From Diacronema lutheri (lineage: Eukaryota > Haptophyta > Pavlovophyceae > Pavlovales > Pavlovaceae): 64,000 bases of DNA. The position numbers and the translations under genes were made by a program. Positions within the stretch are counted from its first letter, which is position 1. Each line of letters opens with the position of its first letter. The stretch covers positions 248,001 to 312,000 of the forward strand of contig JAGTXO010000002.1 of assembly GCA_019448385.1 (NCBI GenBank), written 5' to 3'. Positions 16,669 through 29,140 of this stretch are shown in pieces. The notes beneath the pieces are model-generated. The model searched no databases. It was given only the letters and a program-made list of their open reading frames with translations, and had not been told where the DNA came from.

Positions 16669-17643
16669 TCACGCGCCGGCGCCGCCGAGCCGCGGGATCC
16701 AGAGGCAAAGCAGCGAGCCGGTGCACGCGCTCGCCGCGAGCATGTGCGTCGGGCTCCAGCGCACCGACGTCGCCGCGTTCGCGTGGCCCTGCATCACGGC
16801 CACCTCGCGGCCGGTCGCCGCGTGCCAGACGTGCACGGTGCCGTCGTCCGAGCCGGACAGGACGAACTGGCCGTCGGGCGTGAAGGAGGCCTCGAGCATC
16901 AGCCCGCCCGCGTTCGAGTGCCCGCGGTACGTCGCGAGCTGGTTGCCATCGAACGCGTCGATCAGGTCGATGGCGTCCGATGTCGACGGCAGGAGGATCG
17001 TCTTGCCGTCGTTGGAAAAGGAGAGGTGGTGGAACGCGACGGGCGGGCCGCTCAGCCGGAACGTCGTGAACGGCCCCTTGGCGTACGAGCGCATGTCGTA
17101 CAGCCGGACGGCGCGCGTCGTCTGGTCGGACATGGCGGTCGCGAAGATGAGGCCCTCCGGATCGAACGAGACGGCGGGCGGCGAGTGGTTGGGGACAGAG
17201 AGCACGCCAAGCGCCGCCTCCTGCCGCAGGTCCCACAGCCGCACCGACGAATCGCGGCTCGCCGAGACGAACAGGTCCTCCTTCGGCGACATCTCGAGCG
17301 CGGTCACCGGCGCGGTGTGCCCGTGGAAGTAGCGGAGGAACTGGTTGTCGTGGAGGGAGAGGTAGCGGAGCGAGTGGTCGTTGCTCAGGTTGCGCGACGC
17401 GCAGATGATCGAGAGCTGGTGGTGCGTGAAGCGCACGTGGCACGCGCCGTACTTGCGCGAGTAGACGAGCTTCTGCAGCTTGCCCTCCATGCAGTTGTAC
17501 AGCCGGATCGACTCGTCGTCCGAGCTGGTGACGAGCATCGAGCCGTCGTGGAAGAAATCGAGCGCGTTGATTGGCTTCGCGTTGTCCCGTCGCACGCGCG
17601 CCACCTCCATCGCGCGCAGCGTCTGCGGCGTGAGCTTCATCAT
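16669..17643 (-). CDS. WDR82: WDR82/Swd2, WD40 subunit of COMPASS and PNUTS complexes
   Basis: Single exon, 324 residues, close to human WDR82 (313). It matches the family along its length: MKLTPQTLRAMEVARV, SSDDESIRLYNCMEGK, LSLHDNQFLRYFHGHT, SASRDSSVRLWDLR, CxFDPEGLIFA-like SFDPEGLIFATA, LEASFTPDGQFVLSGSDDG. WDR82 brings the Set1 H3K4 methyltransferase to Ser5-phosphorylated Pol II and also serves the PNUTS-PP1 termination complex. Two adjacent Met codons start the gene; 17643 is the outer one. The CHAT/NB-ARC gene starts 66 bases away on the other strand. Confidence 0.95.
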   Translation of the reverse strand: MMKLTPQTLRAMEVARVRRDNAKPINALDFFHDGSMLVTSSDDESIRLYNCMEGKLQKLVYSRKYGACHVRFTHHQLSIICASRNLSNDHSLRYLSLHDNQFLRYFHGHTAPVTALEMSPKEDLFVSASRDSSVRLWDLRQEAALGVLSVPNHSPPAVSFDPEGLIFATAMSDQTTRAVRLYDMRSYAKGPFTTFRLSGPPVAFHHLSFSNDGKTILLPSTSDAIDLIDAFDGNQLATYRGHSNAGGLMLEASFTPDGQFVLSGSDDGTVHVWHAATGREVAVMQGHANAATSVRWSPTHMLAASACTGSLLCLWIPRLGGAGA

Positions 17644-17709
17644 CGCTCCCGCCGCGCAGCCAGCCCGCACGTCGTCGTGGGTGCGTCACCCGCTTTTCCG
17701 GTGCGTGCA

Positions 17710-20700
17710 ATGCCGCCCGTCAATCCAGCAGGCGCCGCGCCCGATGAGGTGGCGGAGGAGGGCGGCGGCGCGGTGGTGCTGCGCTACCGCTTTGCAGCGC
17801 AGAGCGTCGACCAGTGTCATGCCTTCGTCTTCCGCGCGCCCGCCGCGCGCGTGACGGCCGCCGAGCTGCGGCCGCTCCTCGAGCGCGATGGCGCGAGCGG
17901 CTTTGGCGAGCAGCTGCGCTTCTGGTCGGACGCGTTTGGCGGGTGGCTTGGCGTGGAGGAGGCGGGCGTCGACATGCGCACGCTGCCTACAACCGTCAAT
18001 CCGAGCACCGGCGAGCGCGTCCGATTGCTCACGCTGCTGCTCGAGGAGATGGCGCAGCCGGCCGACCGCCTCGACCGGCCGACCGCGGCGGCGCTCTCGA
18101 CGACGCCCAACAACACGGAGGACGTGCACTCGCTGGAGGGCGACGCGGTGACGCCCGCGCATTTTGCCTACCTCGACCTCGCCGTCCTCTCCGCCAACCC
18201 GCTCGTCTTTGTGCACGAGAGGCAGTACCACCCGCTCGACCACTCGTCGGGCGCGCTCGACTTCAAGGGCGAGTGGAGCCTGCTGCGCTCGATGCTGCGT
18301 CGGACGGGGAAGCGCGTGTGCACGCGCGTGGACATCGCGTCGACCGGCCTGCTCTCCGAGGTGCTCATGCAGCAGCCGCGCTGCCTCTACCTCGTCTGCC
18401 ACGCCGACTACGCGCCGCCCGCCGGCGGGGGCAGCCCGACGCTCCACCTCTCCCTCGAGGACGCGTCGGGCGTGTGCGACTCGGTCTCGCTCGACCGGCT
18501 CAAGGCGTTGCTGCGCGCCGGGCCCGAGGCGCGTCAGAGCGAGCCGAGCGACGAGGAGGACGAGAGCCCGCTCGCCGGCGTGAGCGTCGTCGTCCTCGGG
18601 GCGTGCCACTCGCTCGACGCCGGTGCGCGCCGCGCGCCCGTCCGATGCGGCGCCGCCCTCGCGCGCGCGGCCGGCGCGCACGGCCGGAGGGCGCGCGGTC
18701 GGCCGGGCGCACGCGCGCACCGCGCGGGCTCACGCGTGTTTGCCTGCTCGCCGCCCCGCGCCGCCCCGCGCAGGCCGCGCCTTCGTCGCCGCCGGCTGCA
18801 AGCACGTGGTCGCGATCGCTTCTGATGCAAAGGTGCTCGACGACGACGCGGCACTCTTTGCGCGCCACTTCCTCTTCGCGCTCTTCCAGGGGCAGAGCGT
18901 GCGCTCGGCGTTCGAGCGGGGCAAGGGCGTCGTCGCGTCCGCCGCCAACCCGCGCGTCTCCGAGCCGACCAACCAGCGCGCCTTCGAGGCGGAGAAAATC
19001 GTGCTGCTGCCGGAGGGCGCGCCGCACGACGAAAGGCCCATGTCGGCCCTCCTGCGCGGCGAGCTCTTCGAGGTCAACCCGCTGCCCGCGCTCGAGCCGC
19101 CGACGGTGCCGTCGCCGTTCGTCGGCCGCGCGCTCGAGGTGCAGGCCCTCGTGCGCATGCTCCGCCGCCGCCGGCAGAGCGAGGTGCGGCTCGTGACGCT
19201 CTGGGGCGAGCGCGGCGTGGGCAAGACCGCGCTGAGCAAAGCGGTCGCGCAGTTCCTCTGGCAGAGGCGGCACCTGCAGGACGGCGCGGCCTTTGTCGAG
19301 CTGAGCGGGGTGAGCTCAGAGGAGATGGCGCTCGGCGCGCTCGGCGACGCGCTCGACATGGAGTTTGGCCGGTGGAAGGATGCGAGCCGCGCGCTGCACC
19401 GCTGGCACGGCGTTGTTGTGCTCGACGGCGTCGACGAGCTGCTGCAGGCGCTGCCTGCGATCGTGCAGCGGATGGTCTCGGCGGTGCTGCACGGCTCGCA
19501 GCTGCAGGTCATCGTCACGTCATGCGTGCCCCTCTCCACCGCGATTGGCGCGGAGATGGCCGTCGAGCACCCCGTGCGCATCGACAAGCTGCATGAGCTC
19601 GACGCCGCGCGCCTCCTGCATGCGCTCGTCTCCGACGCGCTACCCGCACACCTGCGCGGCACCGCCAACCTGCGCGCGCTCGCGCAGCACGAGATCTTCA
19701 CGCACCTCGACGGGCTGCCGCGCCGCATCGCCCAGACCGCGCCGCACATCCGGCAGGGCATGTCATTGCGCGCGCTGCTCGCACGCCTCAAGCTCGACTC
19801 GGCGGCCGCGGCCGCGCATGCGCCGACCGACCACGTGCTGCCCATCACGCGCGCGCAGTCGCTCAGCGCGCGCGCGTCGCCGGGCGCGGGCGCGGGCGTC
19901 GCGCCCGGCGCGCCGGCCGCCGCCGAGCCGCCGCCCGTGCACAAGGCTGAGTCGGAGGCGCACGCGGCGGCGCACGCCAGGCAGGCGTACGCGGTCGCCG
20001 CCGCGCACGCGCGCACGGGCGGAGCGCGCGCGCCGGCTGGCACGGCGATCGCACAGCTCAACGGCACGCCCGTGCCGCCGCTCGCGACGTCGCCAGCCAT
20101 CGCCGCGAGGCCGTCGCCCATCGCCGCGCCGCCTGGCGCGCCGGGCGGCAACGGCGCTGACGAGCGTGCGTCGAGCGCGCCGCGCCCGGCTGGCGCGCGC
20201 GTGCGCGAGCCCGCGCCGACGCCCGCGCGCGCGCCCGCGCCGGCCGCGAGCAGCGTTGGTGGCGCGTCTGTCGCTCCGGGCGGCACGCGGCGCACGGGTC
20301 ATGCCACCGCGGCTGAGAGGCCCCTCTCGCCGCCATCGCTCGAGCACTCGCAACCGTCGTCCCAGTCAATCACGACCGCAGATTCTGACTCGGCGGCCGA
20401 GGCGCCCGCCGGGTCGCCCGCAGGCGGATCGGCGGAGCTGTGGTCGCGCAGCGGCGTGCAGCGCCTCGCGCGCGTATCCTTTGAGGGCGCGCGCACGCTG
20501 CACGTCACGACGAGGCCAATCCCGCCGTCAACGCTGGACGAATGCGTCGAGTGCTCGCGCGCGACGCCCGAGCGCGTGCCCGCCGGCCCAGACGACGGCC
20601 GGACGTGCGCCTTCTTCTTCGTCGAGCCGCTCGTCACGCGCGGCGCGCTGCGGCTCGCGCACGCGCCCGCACGCGCGCCTGAGCTGGCCGAGCCGGCCGA

Positions 20701-23623
20701 CGTGCCCACCGCCGCGCCGAGCGGCGCGGCAGCGGCGGTGGCGGGCGGCACGGACGCGTCGCCCATGCCCGGCGGTGCACCCATGTCGCAGCCGCTCGAC
20801 CGCTCGAACGGCAACGCCGAGCTGCAGCCGGTGCCCGACACGGGCGCGGCCGGCTGCTGGCGCGCGGCGTGGCGGAGCGCGAGCCGCGCGCTCGCGCACG
20901 CGCACGTCGCGTGCGCGGTCGAGCTGCAGCCGGCGAGCGCGAGCACGCTGCGCGGCGCGATCGAGCGCGGCCTGCCGCTCGTCTATGTGCTGCCTCCCGC
21001 GCTCTCGTGCGACGCGGACGGTGCGCTGCCCATCGAGCTGAACGGGTGCGGCGAGCTGGGCTGGCTGCCGCCCGGCGCCGTCGCGGGGTGGGTCGGCCCG
21101 CCCGCGCGGCGTACACGCCTCGCGGTGCTTTGGGCCGCGGGCTCCGCCCCGCTCGCGCGCGCGCTCGCTGCGGTCGGCGTGCGTGCGGTCGTCTGCCTGC
21201 GCAAGCCACTCGGCGGCGTGCTCGCTGCGAGCTTCGCGGCGGCGCTCATGTCCGCGCTGCTCGGCGGCGCGCCGATCGGCGCCGCGTTCGCCGTGGCCCT
21301 CGCCGCGCTCCCCGCGTGCGCGCGCGAGGCCCTCTGCCTTGAGCTCGCAGACGCGGATGCGAGCGCGCAGCGGCTCTTCGATACCCACCCGCCCGCCGGC
21401 CCGTTCATCGACCGCACGCCCGCGCTCGCGCGCACAAACTTGCTGCACGACCCGTACGCACCCGACAGCGACGGGTCGTGCATGCGCAGCGCGGGCAGCG
21501 CGGCCGCCGCGCCCGCCAGCGCGCGTGCGCTCGGCGCGCCCGCGGCGGCATGCGGCGCGGGCGGGCGCGGCTCGTCGGCGGATGAGGGCGAGGGCGAGGA
21601 CGGGCAGGGCGACGACGCGACGCTGATTGGCCGTCGGGTGGCGATCCACCAGCTCGTGCGCTCGTGCGTGCAGCACCACCTCACCGCGCTGTACGGCACG
21701 AGCGGCGTCGGTAAGAGCGCCGTTGCCAAGGGCGCAGCATCGTACGCGCGCGCACGCCGCCTCTTCCCGGGCGGCTCCTACGTCGCGGACATGCGCGGCG
21801 TCACGTCGACCAAGGAGCTGTGCGCCATCATCGCAAAGACCCTCGGAGTGCTCGACGACGTGGACGGCGGCGCCGACGGCGCGGCCGCTGGCCGCACCGC
21901 CGCGGCCGCCGCGAGCACCCGACAGCAGCGCATCGGTGCCACTTTGCGCGAGCGCGGCCGCACGCTGCTCGTGCTTGACCGGTGTGAGTCTGCGGTGCAG
22001 CAGTGCTCCAAGCCGCTCTGCTGGTTCTTGCAGCAGCTCTGTGGCCTGTCGAGCGCCGCCATCGTGATCACCTCGCAACTGCCCCTCCCGGAGGATGCCG
22101 ACGCGCTCTTTGGCCACAACGTGTCGGTTGGCGAGGTCGAGCTCGGCGCCCTCCACGCCAACGAGGCGGCGCAGCTCCTCGCCGACGCGATGCGCCGGTA
22201 CGGCCGCCCAATCACCGCCGCGCAGCTCGGCGCGCCCGACGCGCGCCCCTCCTCCGCGGGCGCGGCGGCTCGCGCGGGCGCCGACGACTCGACGGATCCG
22301 GCGCCACGCGCGATGGCGGAGCACGCGCGGCTCGTCGACCTGCTCGCCGCGCGGCCGGCGCTCGCCGAAGCGCGCTGGCTGCCAAAGGAGATGCTGGCAG
22401 TCGCGCGCGCGCTCGGCGCAGACCGCGCGCTCGCCCTTGACGACGCGCTCGGCCGCGAGCGCGAGCGCCGGTCGGGCGCGCGCGCCAGCCTCCTCGGCGA
22501 GCGCGCGCTGCCCGCGGCCGGCCGCCTCTCGCTCCGCTCGAATGTGTCGGTCGAGAACGGCCTCTCGCGCATGCGCTCCGACGGGCAGCTGCGCGCGAGC
22601 GTGAGTCACGCGTCATCGCTCTTCGCACTCACGGCCGGCTTGGTGCTCGACACGACGAACGGCGGCGCGGCGGGCTCTGCGCGGCTGCCGCGCAGGCATG
22701 ACGCGCGTGCCGTGCCCTTCCGCCGCGCTGCGCTGCCGGCGGTGAGCGCAAGCGGCGGCGTGCCCCAACCGACGGCCTCGCCGCCGCCAGCCGACGACGC
22801 TACGGCGCCGCTCGCCGGCGGCAGCGCGGGCGCGCCGGGGCAGCGAGGCGCGTACGATGGCGGGCAGCGCGAGGCAGCGGCGTGCGCACGTGGCGCGAAC
22901 GGCGCCGCGCCCATGAGCGTGCCATTGCCTCTCCTCTCGCCGCCGGCTGTAGCGGGGGGACAGGCTGCCGCCGGCTGCTGCGCGCCCACTCCGCCAATGG
23001 TTCGAGTCCCCAGTCGCCCCTCCCGCGGCAGCTTCTGCCAGCTCGCCGCGATGCCCGAGGATGGCGAGGCGAGCGGATATGCCGATGGGCAGCCGCGCCC
23101 GCCTGACGCCGCCATGCCTGCCGCGCTCGTGCGCGAGGTGAGCGGCGGCAGCGCGCACAGCGCCGAGCCCGAGCAGTTGAAGCTGATCGGCGAGGAGCCC
23201 GCCGTCAGCACCGCCCGCACGCCAGCGATGTCGCGGGCGCGCCCGCCCGACGGCGCCGCGCCCGCGTCCGCCGAGCTGCGCGTGCCGCGCGAGACGCTCA
23301 AGTTCTTCGCCGAGCAGCTGCTGCCAAAGCTGCTCGAGCTCACGCACATTTGCGCGGGCGACGAGGCCCGCGCCGCGCTGCTCGGTGGTGGCGGCGGTGG
23401 TGGCGGCGGCGTGGCGGGCGTTGCGCACGCCCAGCCGCCCGCGCCGCCCGCGCCGCACGGCCGCCGCGACGGCGGGTTGCCGCCCGCGCGCCTCGCGACG
23501 CGCGCCGAGCTGCGCGCGCTCGAGGACAAGGTGGCGCAGCTGCATGTCCTCGCCGCTGGCCTCGGCGCAGTCGCGGTCGGCGTGCTCGCGCTCGCCGCGT
23601 CGGTGGCGCTTCGCAGGCGCTAA
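17710..23623 (+). CDS. CHAT protease-NB-ARC protein, internally duplicated and tail-anchored
   Basis: Exons 17710-18622 and 18774-23623 give about 1,920 residues. Order: (1) CHAT caspase-like domain, residues about 150-370, with His231 in YLVCHADY and Cys299 in VVVLGACHS, the expected dyad; the intron (CCG|GTGCGC ... GCAG) sits just after the Cys motif and rejoins G-RAFVAAGCKHVVAI. (2) NB-ARC-like ATPase with Walker A GERGVGKTAL (Lys455), Walker B VVVLDGVDE, and a GLPRRI motif. (3) Long low-complexity linker. (4) A degenerate second CHAT (LPLVYVLPP in place of the His motif, AVLWAAGSA in place of the Cys motif). (5) Second NTPase with GTSGVGKSAV (Lys1285) and TLLVLDRCE. (6) Another linker, a short helix and a C-terminal membrane segment (AAGLGAVAVGVLALAASVAL) ending in RRR. 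CHAT-STAND proteins act in bacterial defence and regulated cell death; a similar signalling role here is inference. Confidence 0.85.
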
Positions 23624-23806: not shown

Positions 23807-26451
23807 CTTTTCTCAGCGCGTTCCCGTCTCGCGCAGGTGTCGGCGGAGGCGATCCGCGGTCGCTCCCGCCCGCAGCGCCGCGCATCGTGGCAGGCGCGGC
23901 CGCCTGCTGCCTGCGCGCCCCCTCCTCCTCCTCCTCCTCCTCCAGCGCCTGCTGTACCGCCTGCTGCGCGCGCCGCACTGCATTCGCCTGCAGGTAGCGC
24001 GCAAACGCGAACGCGCGCTCCTGCCCGAGCGATGGCAGAGCGCTGAAGAAGAGGACGGGCCCTGCGGGGCGCATGGCGAGCGGCGGACGCCGCCGCGCGC
24101 GCGAAAGGGGGCGACGGCCGAGCGAACGATGCGCGCAGTCAGCGGCTGGGCGGGCCACGGCGAGGGTGCGCGCAATCCCGCACTCGCCGCCCCGCACCTT
24201 GCGCGGTGTGCACGGCAATACCGCGCTGCGCAAAGGGTCCACCGCCCGTCTTCTCCACGCGCACCACCTCGACGAGAGGCAGGCGGATCAGCCGCCCGTT
24301 GCCCGCCAAATAGCAAAGCGAGTCTGCTGTCATGAAGAGGCGGCCACTCGACTGAAAGGCACCGGAAAGGGGGGGGGGGGGGGGGTATGGTGGGGACGGG
24401 ACGGGCAGCTGAGGCGAGCGCGCGCGGGCAACCCCACCCCACCCCTTCAGGGGAAGGGGCGCAACCGCAAGGCGCACGCGCCGCCGCGCGGTGCGCGGTG
24501 CGCGCGCCGCGCGCCGCACCCTCGTGGCGGCAGGTCCGCCGCCATGCGTAAGGGAGCAAGCATACTCAACGACCGGCACTTCGCGCACTGCGAAGCGGCG
24601 CTGAAAGTCTGCGATGGTCGAGTCGGCGAGCTGCTCGTCGCCGTCGTCCACGCCGCCTGCGTCGGCAGACGTCGCCTCGTCCGCTTCGCCGCCGGCTCCG
24701 CGCGCATTACCGCGCCGCGCGATGGGCAACCACGTCCCCTCCGGCAGCCGGATTCGCACGCCGCGGCGCAGCACGTGGCTAAGCAGACGAAGGGATAGGA
24801 GCTGCAGCGTAACGGCCCGCTCCTTGAGGCGCACATACACCGCGCCGTGCGAGCGCGCCCACTGCGCGGTCAGGCGCCACGCCGCCTGCCCGCACCGCAC
24901 GGCCGCGCCTCCGCGCTCGCCGTCTGGCGGACAGCCCGCGTGGAGGTTTTGAAATGGGGCGGCCGCACACACCTCCGCCACGAGCGGCAACGCGTGCGCG
25001 CTGAGCGTGCCCCCGACGACGCTCGCTGCGGCCGCGCCGCCCGCGTGCTGCAGCTCGGCGAGCAGCAGCGCGGGCAAATGGTCGAGCTTGGCGAGCCGAA
25101 AGTCGTTGGCCAGATCGTCCGGCTGCACGCGCACGCCGCTCGCCCCGAACAGCCGCCCGATACGGCGCTGGAGCACGTTCGCGCAGCCGGAGAGGAGGCG
25201 CCAGTGGCGCACGGCCGACTGGTCAAGTGGCGAGCGCGACGCGCCGAGCACGCCGTCCTCCGAGAGCGGGTCCGCGAGCGAGAGCGCCGCGCTGAGGAAG
25301 GCGGCACGCACCTCGCCCTCGTCCAATGACCCCTCGTCCGACGCGTGCGTGCGCAGCTGCGCGCGGAGGCGCGCGAGGGGCGGCGTGCCCATCAGCTGCT
25401 CGTGCAGCCGCGCCACGTCCGCCGCGGGCGAAAATGCCGCCGCGCCGGCCGCGTCGAGGTCGACGCAATGCACGTCGTGCGCGCTCTGCCGCACAGCGCG
25501 CAGCATCGTGCGGTCGCAGCCGACGAGGAACGGTGTGGGCGAGTGGCACAGGAAGGGCGCGAAGGCGGCGCCGCCGTCGGCGGTGGGCAGCATCGGCAGC
25601 ACGTACCCCGCGCACTCGAACGGCAGCAGCAGCGTCTGCACGCCGTGCACCGCGACGTTGCGCACGGCCGCATCCGCTGAGCCAATCAGAAGCTTCCCGT
25701 CAAGGAGGACACACAGCCATGCGCGCACGAGCGTGTCGGTCTGCCAGCGAAGGGCGCGGAGGAGGGGGAGAAGCGGCAGGCGCGGATGCATCCCGTCCGC
25801 AAACAGCCGCTCCGTGTGCGCCGCCACCTCGTCCAGCGCGCCGACGACGCGCGCGAGCTGCTGCCGGAGGGCGGGCGCGGCGGGCAACAGCTGACCGTGT
25901 TGAGCATGCTCCTCGGCGACCTGCTGCAGGAAGAGCGTGCAGACGCGGTACAGCGGGTGCGCGGAGGCGAGCACGAGGCACACCGGTGTCCACGCGCCCG
26001 CGCCCGCCTGCGGGTTGGGGAAGGCCGTCGTGAGGCACGCGGCGTGGTCGGTGCGGCCGTCAGGCCGCTCGCACGCAAACGTGTGCACGTACGACGAGAG
26101 GCCGCCGTTGGTGCGGTCGGGCAGCGGGAGCAGGTCGGGGAAGCAGTACGGGACGAGATGCTCCGCGCTCGCCTCCGCCGGCACCGCCGTACCCACGCGC
26201 ACCAGCGCGCAGAACTGGCGCGAGACGGGCAGCTGCAGCCCGAGCGGCGCGTTGAACTCGGCGTCGCCCCACGCCTCGGACGGCGCGGCCGCCGTGCCGC
26301 GCACCGTAGGCCCGACGAGCACGAAGGCGCGCACGTCGCTGTCCACCCGCGCCGCAGCGCCCGCCGCACCCGCCGACGCGGGCGCCGACGACGCGCACGA
26401 CGGACGTGCGAGCAGCAGGAGCGCCGCCGCGCCGCGGCGGACGGCCATCAT
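23769..26451 (-). CDS. DENN-domain Rab regulator with C-terminal GRAM domain
   Basis: Exons 26451-24520, 24351-24198 and 24061-23769 give about 792 residues. The upstream DENN part (VRAFVLVGP, PYCFPDLLPL, SYVHTFACERPDG) leads to the core DENN (LLDGKLLIGS, VQTLLLPFECAGYVLPMLP, FAPFLCHSPTPFLVGCD). DENN proteins are exchange factors for Rab GTPases. The C-terminus is a GRAM/PH-like lipid-binding domain (SSGRLFMTADSLCYLAG ... IRLPLVEVVRVEK ... GIAVHTAQG joined across intron 2 to PVLFFSALP and RAFAFARYL), then a poly-Glu coiled tail. Intron 1 contains a poly-C run close to its acceptor. The start Met pair precedes a hydrophobic stretch (AALLLLARPS) unusual for a cytosolic DENN protein, so the true N-terminus could differ. 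Confidence 0.75.
24369..24385. repeat. Poly-G run of 17 inside an intron
   Basis: Poly-C on the sense strand of the DENN-GRAM gene, ending 17 bases before the 3' splice site (TTTCAG) of intron 24352-24519, where a polypyrimidine tract is expected. Confidence 0.95.
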
Positions 26452-26474
26452 TAAGTACACGTGGCCGCTGCACC
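26452..26474. promoter_or_regulatory. 23-base divergent gap between DENN and BioF start codons
   Basis: Only 23 bases separate the two outward-facing start codons, so the 5' UTRs must be nearly absent or the core promoters must lie within the neighbouring coding sequence. The gap contains CACGTG (G-box/E-box) at 26458-26463. Confidence 0.5.
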
Positions 26475-27758
26475 ATGGAGGCTTGTCGAGGGCCCTCGGA
26501 GGCGTGGGCGGAGTGGACGGCAAGGCGGCTCGCCGAGCTGCGCGACCGGCGCGTGCTGCGCTCGCTCCGCGCGCTCAGTCCCGTGCTTGGCGACGCGAGC
26601 GCCGTTGTGCTCGACGCGGGCACGCGAGACAGCTGGGCGCGCGACGCGCCGAGCCTCGGCGAGTGGGAGGGCGCACAGACGGAGCGGCTCGTGCTCTTCG
26701 CCGCGAACGACTACCTGGGGCTGAGCGCGCACGCCGACGTGCGTGCCGCCGCAGCAGCCGCCGCCGCCGAGTCTGGCTGCGGCCCGCGCGCGTCGCCGCT
26801 CGTGAGCGGCTACACGCACGCGCACCGGCGGCTCGAGAGCGACCTCGCGGCGCTCAAGGGTACGGAGGAGGCGCTCGTGCTGCCGACGGGCTACGCAGCC
26901 AACCTGGCGGTGCTCGGCGCGCTCGCCGACTCGCCCTCCGCCGCCATCTTCTCCGACGCGCTCAACCACGCGTCGATCGTCGACGGCGCGCGGCTCGCGG
27001 CGCGCGGCGCGGGCGCGGCGCTGCACGTCTACAAGCATAACGACATGGCCGATCTAGGCGCGCAGCTGGCGGCGAGCACGGCGGCGCGCAAGCTGATTGT
27101 GAGCGACTCGCTCTTCTCGATGGACGGCGACTACGCCGACGTGCGCGCCCTCGTCGCGCTGCGCGCGTCGCACGGCGCTCTGCTTGTGCTCGACGACGCG
27201 CACGCGACGCTCGTCTGCGGCGAGGGCGGCGGCGGCGTCGCGCAGATGCAGGGCGTGCGGCCGGAGGAGGTGGACGTGACGGTAGGCACGTTGAGCAAGG
27301 CCTTTGGCGCGCACGGTGGATTCGTCGCGTGCAGCGCGCAGCTCAAGCGGCTGCTCGTCTCGACGGGTCGGCCGGTCATCTTCTCAACAGCGCTGCCCGC
27401 GCCAGCGGTCGCGGCCGCGTCGGCGGCGCTGCGCGCCGCGACGCCAGCGCTGCGCGCCAAGCTGTGGGCCAACGTGCGCCTCTTCGCTGCCGAGACCGGC
27501 CTTCCCGCCGCCTCGCCCATCGTGCCCGTCGTCGTCGGCGACGAGGCGGACGCGCTCGCGCTCTCGGCGGCGCTCCTCGCCGACGGCTTCTTCGTGCCGG
27601 CAATCCGGCCGCCGACGGTGCCGCGCGGCTCGTCGCGGCTACGCGTCACGCTCTCCGCCGCGCACGACGAGGCCGACGTGCGTGCGCTCGCCGCCGCGCT
27701 CCGCCGGCACGGCGCGTGCGGCGCCCGAGCTGCCGGCCGCCTCCGCGCAAAGTTGTGA
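26475..27758 (+). CDS. bioF: 8-amino-7-oxononanoate synthase (biotin synthesis), peroxisomal type
   Basis: PLP enzyme that joins pimeloyl-CoA (or ACP) and L-alanine to make KAPA, the first committed biotin step. Single exon, 427 residues. Family features: FAANDYLGLSAHADV, SPLVSGYTHAHRRLESDLAALKG, LPTGYAANLAVLG, SDALNHASIVDGARL, DSLFSMDGDYADV, DDAHATLVCGEGG and the PLP-lysine motif VGTLSKAFGAHGG. The last three residues are AKL, a plausible type 1 peroxisomal signal; KAPA synthases of plants and fungi are peroxisomal, so this fits. Related 2-oxoamine synthases (KBL, SPT, ALAS) are less likely given the DDAHATLVCGE and C-terminal context. Confidence 0.88.
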   Translation: MEACRGPSEAWAEWTARRLAELRDRRVLRSLRALSPVLGDASAVVLDAGTRDSWARDAPSLGEWEGAQTERLVLFAANDYLGLSAHADVRAAAAAAAAESGCGPRASPLVSGYTHAHRRLESDLAALKGTEEALVLPTGYAANLAVLGALADSPSAAIFSDALNHASIVDGARLAARGAGAALHVYKHNDMADLGAQLAASTAARKLIVSDSLFSMDGDYADVRALVALRASHGALLVLDDAHATLVCGEGGGGVAQMQGVRPEEVDVTVGTLSKAFGAHGGFVACSAQLKRLLVSTGRPVIFSTALPAPAVAAASAALRAATPALRAKLWANVRLFAAETGLPAASPIVPVVVGDEADALALSAALLADGFFVPAIRPPTVPRGSSRLRVTLSAAHDEADVRALAAALRRHGACGARAAGRLRAKL

Positions 27759-27844
27759 GTCGGGATCTGACACCATCGTGGTGTTGTAGTGTGTGTCGGA
27801 TGCCGACCGCAAGCGTTCCGCCGGTTGGCGCGAATATTGGCCGA

Positions 27845-29140
27845 ATGGCGGCGCACCGATCCAGAGCGCTCGCGCTCGTTGCCGCCTTGTCGGCCGCCCT
27901 CGTGCTCGCCGTCGTGCTTTGCACGCGGGACGGGCGCTCCGACGCGCCCGAGCGCTTCCTCTTCTTTGCACCGTCCGCGCCGTCCACACCGCCGCCACCA
28001 CCGCCGCCGTACGTCGCGCTGCGCGACGCCGCGCCCGCGCGCCCGCTGATCGGCACGGCGTACAACGACTTCCGCCTGTGGGGCCTTGGCGACGCGGCGG
28101 CGGAGGCGCAGTACGAGGCACTGCTCGCGGCCAACTTCAACGTGCTCACGGCAGAGAACGCGTGCAAGCCGGCCGCCATCATGCCCACGCGCGACGCGCC
28201 TCCCGACTTCGCGCCGTGCGACCGCGTCCTCGCGTTCGCGCGCGAGCACGGCATGCGCTTCCGGCTGCACGTGATTGGGTGGGGCGAGTGGAACCCGGAG
28301 TGGATGGTGCAGCTACCCTCAGAAGAGCGCGAGGACGCGCTCCTCGACTACGCCCGAGCCGTCCTTTTGCACTACAACGGCTCGGTCGACTACGTCGACG
28401 TTGTCAACGAGGCCGTTTGCGATCAGATCGCCTTCACGGCGTCCAAGCGCAATTGTGGCTCCGGTCCTGGCGAGCTCAAGGCAGGCCAGTGGGTGCCCTC
28501 CGTGCCCAGCTACCTCGACCGCCTCTTCCTTCTCGCGCGCGAGTTGTGTGCGGAGTGCATTCTTGTGTACAACGAATATGGGCACGAGAGCAATGCCGAC
28601 CCGATTGATGGCGGCAAGCACGAGCGCGTCCTTTCGACGGTGCGCGCGGCACTGTCACGCGGCGTGCCGATCGACGCGGTCGGCTTCCAGTTCCACGCGA
28701 GCAACCTGGCGACCGGCCACGGCGTGCTCGGCCTGCCGTTCGCCGGCTACTTGCCGGGCGTGCGCCACGCGTTTGCCCACTTCGCCGCGCTCGGCGTCGC
28801 GCTGCACGTGACGGAGATCGATGTCGGCTGCACCGTGCCCACGATGCCGTGCACGCCGTGGGAGTCGGACGGCGCGCGCCAGGAGGCACAGGCCGCCGTG
28901 TACTCGGCGGCGCTGGCCGCGTGCGTCGAGAACCCGGCGTGCACTGTCTTCCAGACGTGGGGCCCGACCGACCGGTTCTCGTGGAGGGACGGCGGTTGGG
29001 AGGCCACCGCGGCCACCAGCCTCGCGCCAAGCAGGCTCATGGACCAGCGCGCGCACCTGTTCACGCGGGACTACGAGCCCAAGGCGGCGTACTGGGCGCT
29101 GCTCAAGGTTTTGCAGGACGCGGCGGCGTCTCCCGCCTGA
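27845..29140 (+). CDS. GH10 endo-beta-1,4-xylanase-like protein, secreted or type II membrane
   Basis: Single exon, 431 residues from the second ATG; an upstream in-frame ATG at 27800 would add 15. A basic start followed by ALALVAALSAALVLAVVLC is a signal peptide or anchor, then a Pro-rich linker. The GH10 barrel has FNVLTAENACKPAAIMP, LHVIGWGEWNPEWM, the acid/base Glu in VDVVNEAVCD, FLLARELCAECILVYNEYG, VGFQFHAS and the nucleophile Glu in LHVTEIDVG, then FQTWGPTDRFSW. Substrate may be xylan or another beta-glycan of the algal cell covering, or of food particles. All key residues are present, so it is probably active. Confidence 0.88.
   Translation: MAAHRSRALALVAALSAALVLAVVLCTRDGRSDAPERFLFFAPSAPSTPPPPPPPYVALRDAAPARPLIGTAYNDFRLWGLGDAAAEAQYEALLAANFNVLTAENACKPAAIMPTRDAPPDFAPCDRVLAFAREHGMRFRLHVIGWGEWNPEWMVQLPSEEREDALLDYARAVLLHYNGSVDYVDVVNEAVCDQIAFTASKRNCGSGPGELKAGQWVPSVPSYLDRLFLLARELCAECILVYNEYGHESNADPIDGGKHERVLSTVRAALSRGVPIDAVGFQFHASNLATGHGVLGLPFAGYLPGVRHAFAHFAALGVALHVTEIDVGCTVPTMPCTPWESDGARQEAQAAVYSAALAACVENPACTVFQTWGPTDRFSWRDGGWEATAATSLAPSRLMDQRAHLFTRDYEPKAAYWALLKVLQDAAASPA

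Follow-up and report, generated by a model that had tools for sequence, protein, structure and literature searches.

Does one gene of a haptophyte encode a CHAT protease and an NB ATPase followed, in the same chain, by a second, degenerate protease and a second ATPase, and what might such a protein do? We addressed this question in a window of 64,000 nucleotides from Diacronema lutheri (the whole stretch of DNA analysed), for which a sequence-only reading had proposed a head-to-tail duplicated protein with a C-terminal membrane segment. We found that the first CHAT domain lies directly before an AfsR-type NB domain and that the same reading frame runs on into a CHAT-like region, a second P-loop ATPase and a hydrophobic segment. 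We judge the CHAT-STAND protein to be real and its second half to be unusual.

The gene model and its surroundings

The two-exon model covers positions 17710-23623 of the forward strand and, when spliced, gives a protein of 1,920 aa, which confirmed the coordinates originally proposed. Exon 1 (17710..18622, +) begins with the ATG at 17710 and is an open frame that encodes residues 1-145 and the first part of the first CHAT domain (CHAT1). It is followed by a 151-bp GT-AG intron (GTGCGC...CGCAG; 18623..18773, +), recognized by reading the sequence and from the spliced translation, the removal of which yields GACHSLDAGRAFVAAGCKHVV. Exon 2 (18774..23623, +) encodes the rest of CHAT1, the first ATPase (NB1), a linker, the second CHAT-like region (CHAT2), the second ATPase (NB2), a low-complexity tail and a C-terminal hydrophobic segment, and over this exon frame 0 stays open from 18776 until it reaches the stop codon at 23621. 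Exon 1 ends 16 bases past the codon of the catalytic cysteine of CHAT1, and the Pfam CHAT match spans the junction between the two exons. Frame 0 also had the top codon score among the six frames in both exon 1 segments examined. An antisense gene, or a gene in another frame, was considered and rejected: the eight overlapping ORFs (seven antisense, one in another forward frame) matched no Pfam family at E <= 0.05.

Residues 1-145 (17710-18144) make up an N-terminal domain of unknown type, which matched no Pfam family in a scan of the spliced protein and contains none of the 14 best-separated Kyte-Doolittle windows. The idea that both halves share an N-terminal domain was also rejected, as no counterpart of residues 1-145 was found before CHAT2 (z=-0.86).

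The window is eukaryotic, with neighbours that include DENN, PHD-finger, Myb, WD40 and histone acetyltransferase genes. When 25 surrounding ORFs were scanned with Pfam, 16 were matched, to metabolic, transport, trafficking, chromatin and glycosylation types; no gasdermin family was found among the 25. A WD40-repeat gene lies on the other strand within 16669-17710, and its likely ATG, which is the start that we chose, is at 17643, about 66 bp from the ATG of the CHAT gene, so that the upstream region shared by the two genes is very short. Elsewhere in the window, a glycosyl hydrolase 10 ORF (27329-29140, +) overlaps, in another frame, the end of an aminotransferase ORF (26406-27758, +).

A predicted CHAT protease and two ATPases

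CHAT1 matched PF12770 at 31.4 bits over residues 188-361, above the curated Pfam cut-off of 24. In an alignment of 13 sequences, made up of CHAT1 and 12 bacterial CHATs out of 16 retrieved (alignment A1), His231 (18400..18402, +) falls in a column with His in 12 of the 13 sequences and Cys299 (18604..18606, +) in one with Cys in all 13. With both members of the dyad in conserved columns, CHAT1 is an intact predicted protease, and the alignment agrees with the catalytic residues named in the sequence-only reading. Comparison of CHAT1 with PDB sequences gave no match, and an alignment of CHAT1-NB1 with TPR-CHATs was misaligned and was set aside. As a separate observation, a plasmid-borne CHAT of Tolypothrix (L012:713-1561), which adjoins two other CHAT genes, has Thr at the column of the catalytic His; judged by this residue, it is possibly a natural dead copy in a bacterium.

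Two ATPases had been predicted, an NB-ARC-like one in the first half and a further P-loop ATPase in the second, and both were recovered above Pfam cut-offs with their two Walker motifs. NB1 (residues 411-645; 19091..19795, +) is AfsR/LuxR-like and matched AAA_16 at 37.1 bits (cut-off 32.6); its Walker A motif is GERGVGKT (residues 449-456) and its Walker B motif VVVLDGVDE. It aligned, at 29-33% identity, with four plasmid-borne bacterial NB domains of this type. In contrast to NB1, which is joined to a CHAT, the plasmid hits bear the names of kinase, LuxR-type or winged-helix proteins or have no annotation, and none is named as a CHAT. A comparison of exon 2 with PDB sequences returned only AAA-type ATPase chains, around NB1, with a best E of 0.0011.

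NB2 (residues 1251-1545; 21611..22495, +) is a STAND-type P-loop ATPase that matched nSTAND1 at 40.1 bits (cut-off 27.1), with the Walker A motif GTSGVGKS and the Walker B motif LLVLDRCE. Its AF2 model, for which the input alignment contained just two sequences, both from the window, had block pLDDT values of 61-85 across most of the P-loop core and a mean pLDDT of 45 as a whole. Foldseek gave 30 matches to this model at E <= 0.001, mostly ORC/Cdc6 chains together with two of the ZAR1 resistosome, a plant NLR assembly (6j5t, 6j6i), and the Dark apoptosome and Avs4 came next (E 1.1e-3 to 2.2e-3); TM-scores of the matches were low, at about 0.25 or less by query length.

The arginine of the TSR/TTR motif is a phosphate sensor. 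It is kept in all four aligned bacterial NB domains, in contrast to NB1, which has Cys555 at this site (TSC; 19523-19525, +), and NB2, which has Gln1406 (TSQ; 22076-22078, +). Loss of the arginine in both ATPases suggests altered ATP sensing.

We next consider how the two halves may be related. NB1 and NB2 are 30% identical over 69 aa (E=1e-6), and the domain order is the same in both halves (alignment A5). The sequence-only reading had proposed a head-to-tail duplication; that this was a recent event is doubtful. After a recent duplication NB2 would have stayed the closest match of NB1, so such an event is unlikely and was rejected: NB1 scored 156-175 (z about 20-23) against the four bacterial NB domains and 102 (z about 11) against NB2, in a comparison where the four had been picked as the best matches of NB1, a choice that favours NB1. 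NB2 is about equally far from all of the NB domains compared (scores of 91-102). An old duplication with fast divergence of the second half, or a fusion, fits these scores better.

Searches for relatives gave little beyond NB1. Weak matches on plasmids, in six records and with a best E of 1e-4, were to the NB part of the first half only; the second half had no match on plasmids, the first half had none in phages, and one plasmid record that was searched for CHAT contained no such domain. No relative was confirmed in viral contigs scanned with CHAT1C-NB1, the second half, exon 1 and alignment A5, and two scans of genome contigs, in collections without eukaryotic genomes, confirmed no ortholog. 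Within the portions of the open-licence literature that were available, we found no mention of a tandem CHAT-NB protein.

The second half, the linker and the hydrophobic segments

The sequence-only reading had described a second CHAT without its dyad and had suggested PF12770 as a check on both copies. For CHAT2 (residues 905-1180; 20573..21400, +), as opposed to CHAT1, the matches fell below the cut-off of 24: a 371-aa piece, in which CHAT was the sole family matched, scored 14.6 bits (E=0.023), and a 93-aa piece, with CHAT as its top family, scored 16.7 bits (E=0.0053), in the register of the catalytic loop. None of eight controls of the 93-aa piece (one reversed, seven shuffled) matched CHAT; two of the seven shuffles matched unrelated Pfam families (E 0.014 and 0.03), so Pfam E-values are inflated for the composition of this region. 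The likeness to CHAT is confined to about 75 C-terminal residues. When the C-terminal half of CHAT1 (residues 281-372) was aligned with residues 861-1200, we obtained a z of 5.35 with BLOSUM62, a score reached by none of 500 shuffles, and z values of 3.96 (1/500) and 4.22 (0/500) with two BLOSUM45 gap settings, while linker, tail and NB2 controls gave z values of 1.3 or below. The whole of CHAT1 aligned less well with 861-1200 (shuffles reached the score in 7/500 with BLOSUM62 and in 28/500 and 35/500 with BLOSUM45), and the N-terminal half of the CHAT2 region did not resemble CHAT1 (z=-0.6). When 1,508 overlapping segments from all six frames of the window, those of CHAT1 itself included, were ranked by their match to the C-terminal half of CHAT1, CHAT2 came first apart from self matches; it scored 58, and the unrelated place that followed scored 55. 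In the local alignment Cys299 pairs with Ala1093; the His site could not be aligned, and Pro1045 is a guess made by eye.

Could the region be something other than a CHAT? It would then be an Ala-rich stretch with a hydrophobic hairpin ahead of NB2, and the protein would combine a single protease with two ATPases and perhaps two segments in the membrane, a reading that we regard as quite unlikely. The proposed hairpin is a charge-free hydrophobic run of 39 residues inside CHAT2 (residues 1116-1154; 21206..21322, +), with Kyte-Doolittle values of up to 2.02, longer than the candidate tail anchor described below, in a comparison of charge-free runs that covered the protein outside residues 650-859 and 1560-1790; judged by hydropathy and charge, this run may represent either a pair of buried helices or another element in the membrane. 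The non-CHAT reading also draws on the N-terminal half of the region, on the inflation of the Pfam E-values and on two profile comparisons. A profile of 15 bacterial CHATs (16 sequences fetched, from which one 226-residue fragment was dropped first) gave CHAT2 -2.1 bits and some shuffles more (top 3.3), but it is too distant to decide on CHAT2, because CHAT1 itself gets only 11.0 bits. With hhalign, the score of 20.1 was not separated from controls: one shuffle in 100 scored higher, as did the NB2 control (20.6). A single-sequence AF2 model of CHAT2 (pLDDT 41, pTM 0.42) was too poor to judge the fold, and Foldseek gave no match to it at E <= 0.001. Searches with PADLOC, PHROGs and NCBIfam returned no CHAT family and matched only the ATPase parts. 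Arguing for a CHAT, however, are its place as sole or best Pfam family in the two pieces, the BLOSUM62 shuffles and controls for the C-terminal half, and the first rank in the window, even if by 58 to 55. CHAT2 is thus likely a degenerate CHAT. What stands of the earlier description is the C-terminal similarity to CHAT1 with Ala in the place of Cys, and what does not is an above-threshold family match or any likeness in the N-terminal half; absence of the catalytic Cys, and with it a dead second protease, is partly supported, over the C-terminal part only.

The two halves are joined by a linker rich in Ala, Pro and Ser (residues 646-860; 19796..20440, +), recognized by its composition, with an ambiguous coding signal in 751-860. 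One gene across this linker is our proposed, unproven gene model. Its rival is a pair of neighbouring genes, in which a CHAT-NB gene would end near the linker and a separate gene for a degenerate CHAT, a STAND ATPase and a membrane segment would follow; because the DNA is about 74-78% G+C, a single frame could stay open across both by chance. In linker part 751-860 a reverse frame has a higher codon score (+0.10) than frame 0 (+0.04), and in residues 761-840 G+C is about equal at codon positions 2 and 3 (0.80 and 0.82). We roughly estimate, from the stops in the five other frames (four in linker part A and six in part B), that a non-coding linker would have about a 1 in 7 chance of staying open, and the base composition there makes an open linker weak evidence of coding. 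Against two genes, frame 0 is open over the whole of 18776-23621 and has the highest codon score of the six frames in 9 of the 14 segments, those of the two CHATs and the two ATPases among them, and the domain order recurs in both halves. Another frame beats frame 0 in 751-860, 1181-1250, 1641-1760, 1761-1850 and 1851-1920, in the last by +0.13 to +0.11. On balance we consider two genes unlikely.

After NB2 comes a low-complexity tail (residues 1546-1880; 22496..23500, +), with a negative codon score in 1641-1760. No repeat domain was found in the tail; positions 22550-23620 matched no Pfam family. The protein ends in a charged, helix-like stretch, a charge-free hydrophobic segment of 22 residues (1896-1917) and RRR before the stop (23501..23620, +). 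This segment, three residues from the end, holds the top Kyte-Doolittle window of the protein (2.24). Judged by hydropathy alone, it fits a tail anchor and is a candidate for one. Of the C-terminal membrane segment in the sequence-only reading, the hydropathy peak and the RRR after it were confirmed; a second, longer hydrophobic run lies at 1116-1154.

Known relatives and a proposed function

According to the available parts of the cited work, proteins related to the CHAT-STAND architecture take part in regulated cell death, in fungi as well as in bacteria (PMC12881547, PMC10197012); the sequence-only reading had linked such proteins to bacterial defence and caspase-like pathways. In fungi, some of the NLRs that begin with a CHAT are found next to gasdermin genes, and a CHAT protease with TPRs activates a gasdermin (PMC9815663, PMC10197012, PMC12881547, in the sections seen). 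What our protein shares with the fungal CHAT-NLRs is a eukaryotic setting and a CHAT protease at the N-terminus that is joined to a STAND ATPase (PMC10197012, PMC9815663, to the same extent). Fungal protease sensors are described as often bearing ANK, TPR or WD40 repeats (PMC12881547, PMC10197012, in part), in contrast to our protein, where none was found. A degenerate CHAT, a second ATPase and a terminal hydrophobic segment are added instead. The effector-NB-repeats order of NLRs differs likewise in its C-terminal superstructure repeats, as there were no LRR, TPR, WD40 or ANK repeats among the 19 Pfam families for exon 2. Separase has a pseudo-protease domain beside its active one, and separase and TPR-CHAT (Craspase) are regulated by securin or gRAMP; to our knowledge, they have no NB ATPase. 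They are like our protein in being caspase-fold proteases related to CHAT (PMC9729208, as far as the text was available). Bacterial pseudo-orthocaspases resemble CHAT2 in having a caspase-like domain that has lost its His-Cys dyad, and differ in that theirs is a p20 domain of another caspase-like family, with Tyr/Ser replacing His/Cys (PMC6426788, in the part available).

We favour, with a probability of roughly 0.45, a eukaryotic STAND (NLR-like) signalling protease in which a live CHAT1 is kept with a degenerate partner in one membrane-anchored chain. The protein is similar to switches for cell death that have been described in bacteria and fungi. CHAT1 would be the effector and the NB domains the switch. 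The C-terminus would hold the protein on a membrane with both units in the cytosol, and nucleotide exchange in the NB domains would lead several chains to assemble. Assembly would bring CHAT1 domains together, turn the protease on by proximity and allow a target to be cut. In view of the TSR sites, the switch may be governed by assembly or a partner and not by fast hydrolysis. The second CHAT, its catalytic Cys lost, would serve as a structural or regulatory partner, by analogy with the pseudo-protease domain of separase, and we infer, as did the sequence-only reading, that the dead copy may regulate or dimerise with the live one. A bolder version, which we consider doubtful, is a built-in heterodimer: a live CHAT-ATPase permanently paired with its dead counterpart in one chain, as an NLR-like death switch that has no sensor repeats, has given up both TSR arginines and is driven by pairing at an organelle membrane.

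The pathway would most likely be regulated death or stress, as proposed for fungal CHAT-NLRs. The same architecture could instead belong to a processing protease in development, the cell cycle or stress signalling, as separase does, with no role in death or defence. We hold this to be somewhat unlikely. The structure of TPR-CHAT resembles separase (PMC9729208, in the text seen), the 16 Pfam-matched neighbours among the 25 ORFs scanned are of ordinary types, and Pfam found no sensor repeats; on the other hand, fusion of a CHAT to an NB domain is known from fungal NLRs (PMC10197012, in the part seen).

One proposed cause of the collapse of phytoplankton blooms is programmed death, and phytoplankton are described as being without canonical caspases, with the molecular parts of their death unknown (PMC8455989, in the sections available). 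If the gene is that of an alga and is read as a single transcript, a CHAT-STAND protease that carries its own pseudo-protease partner would offer a specific candidate for a component of phytoplankton death and would link the death switches of bacteria, fungi and protists.
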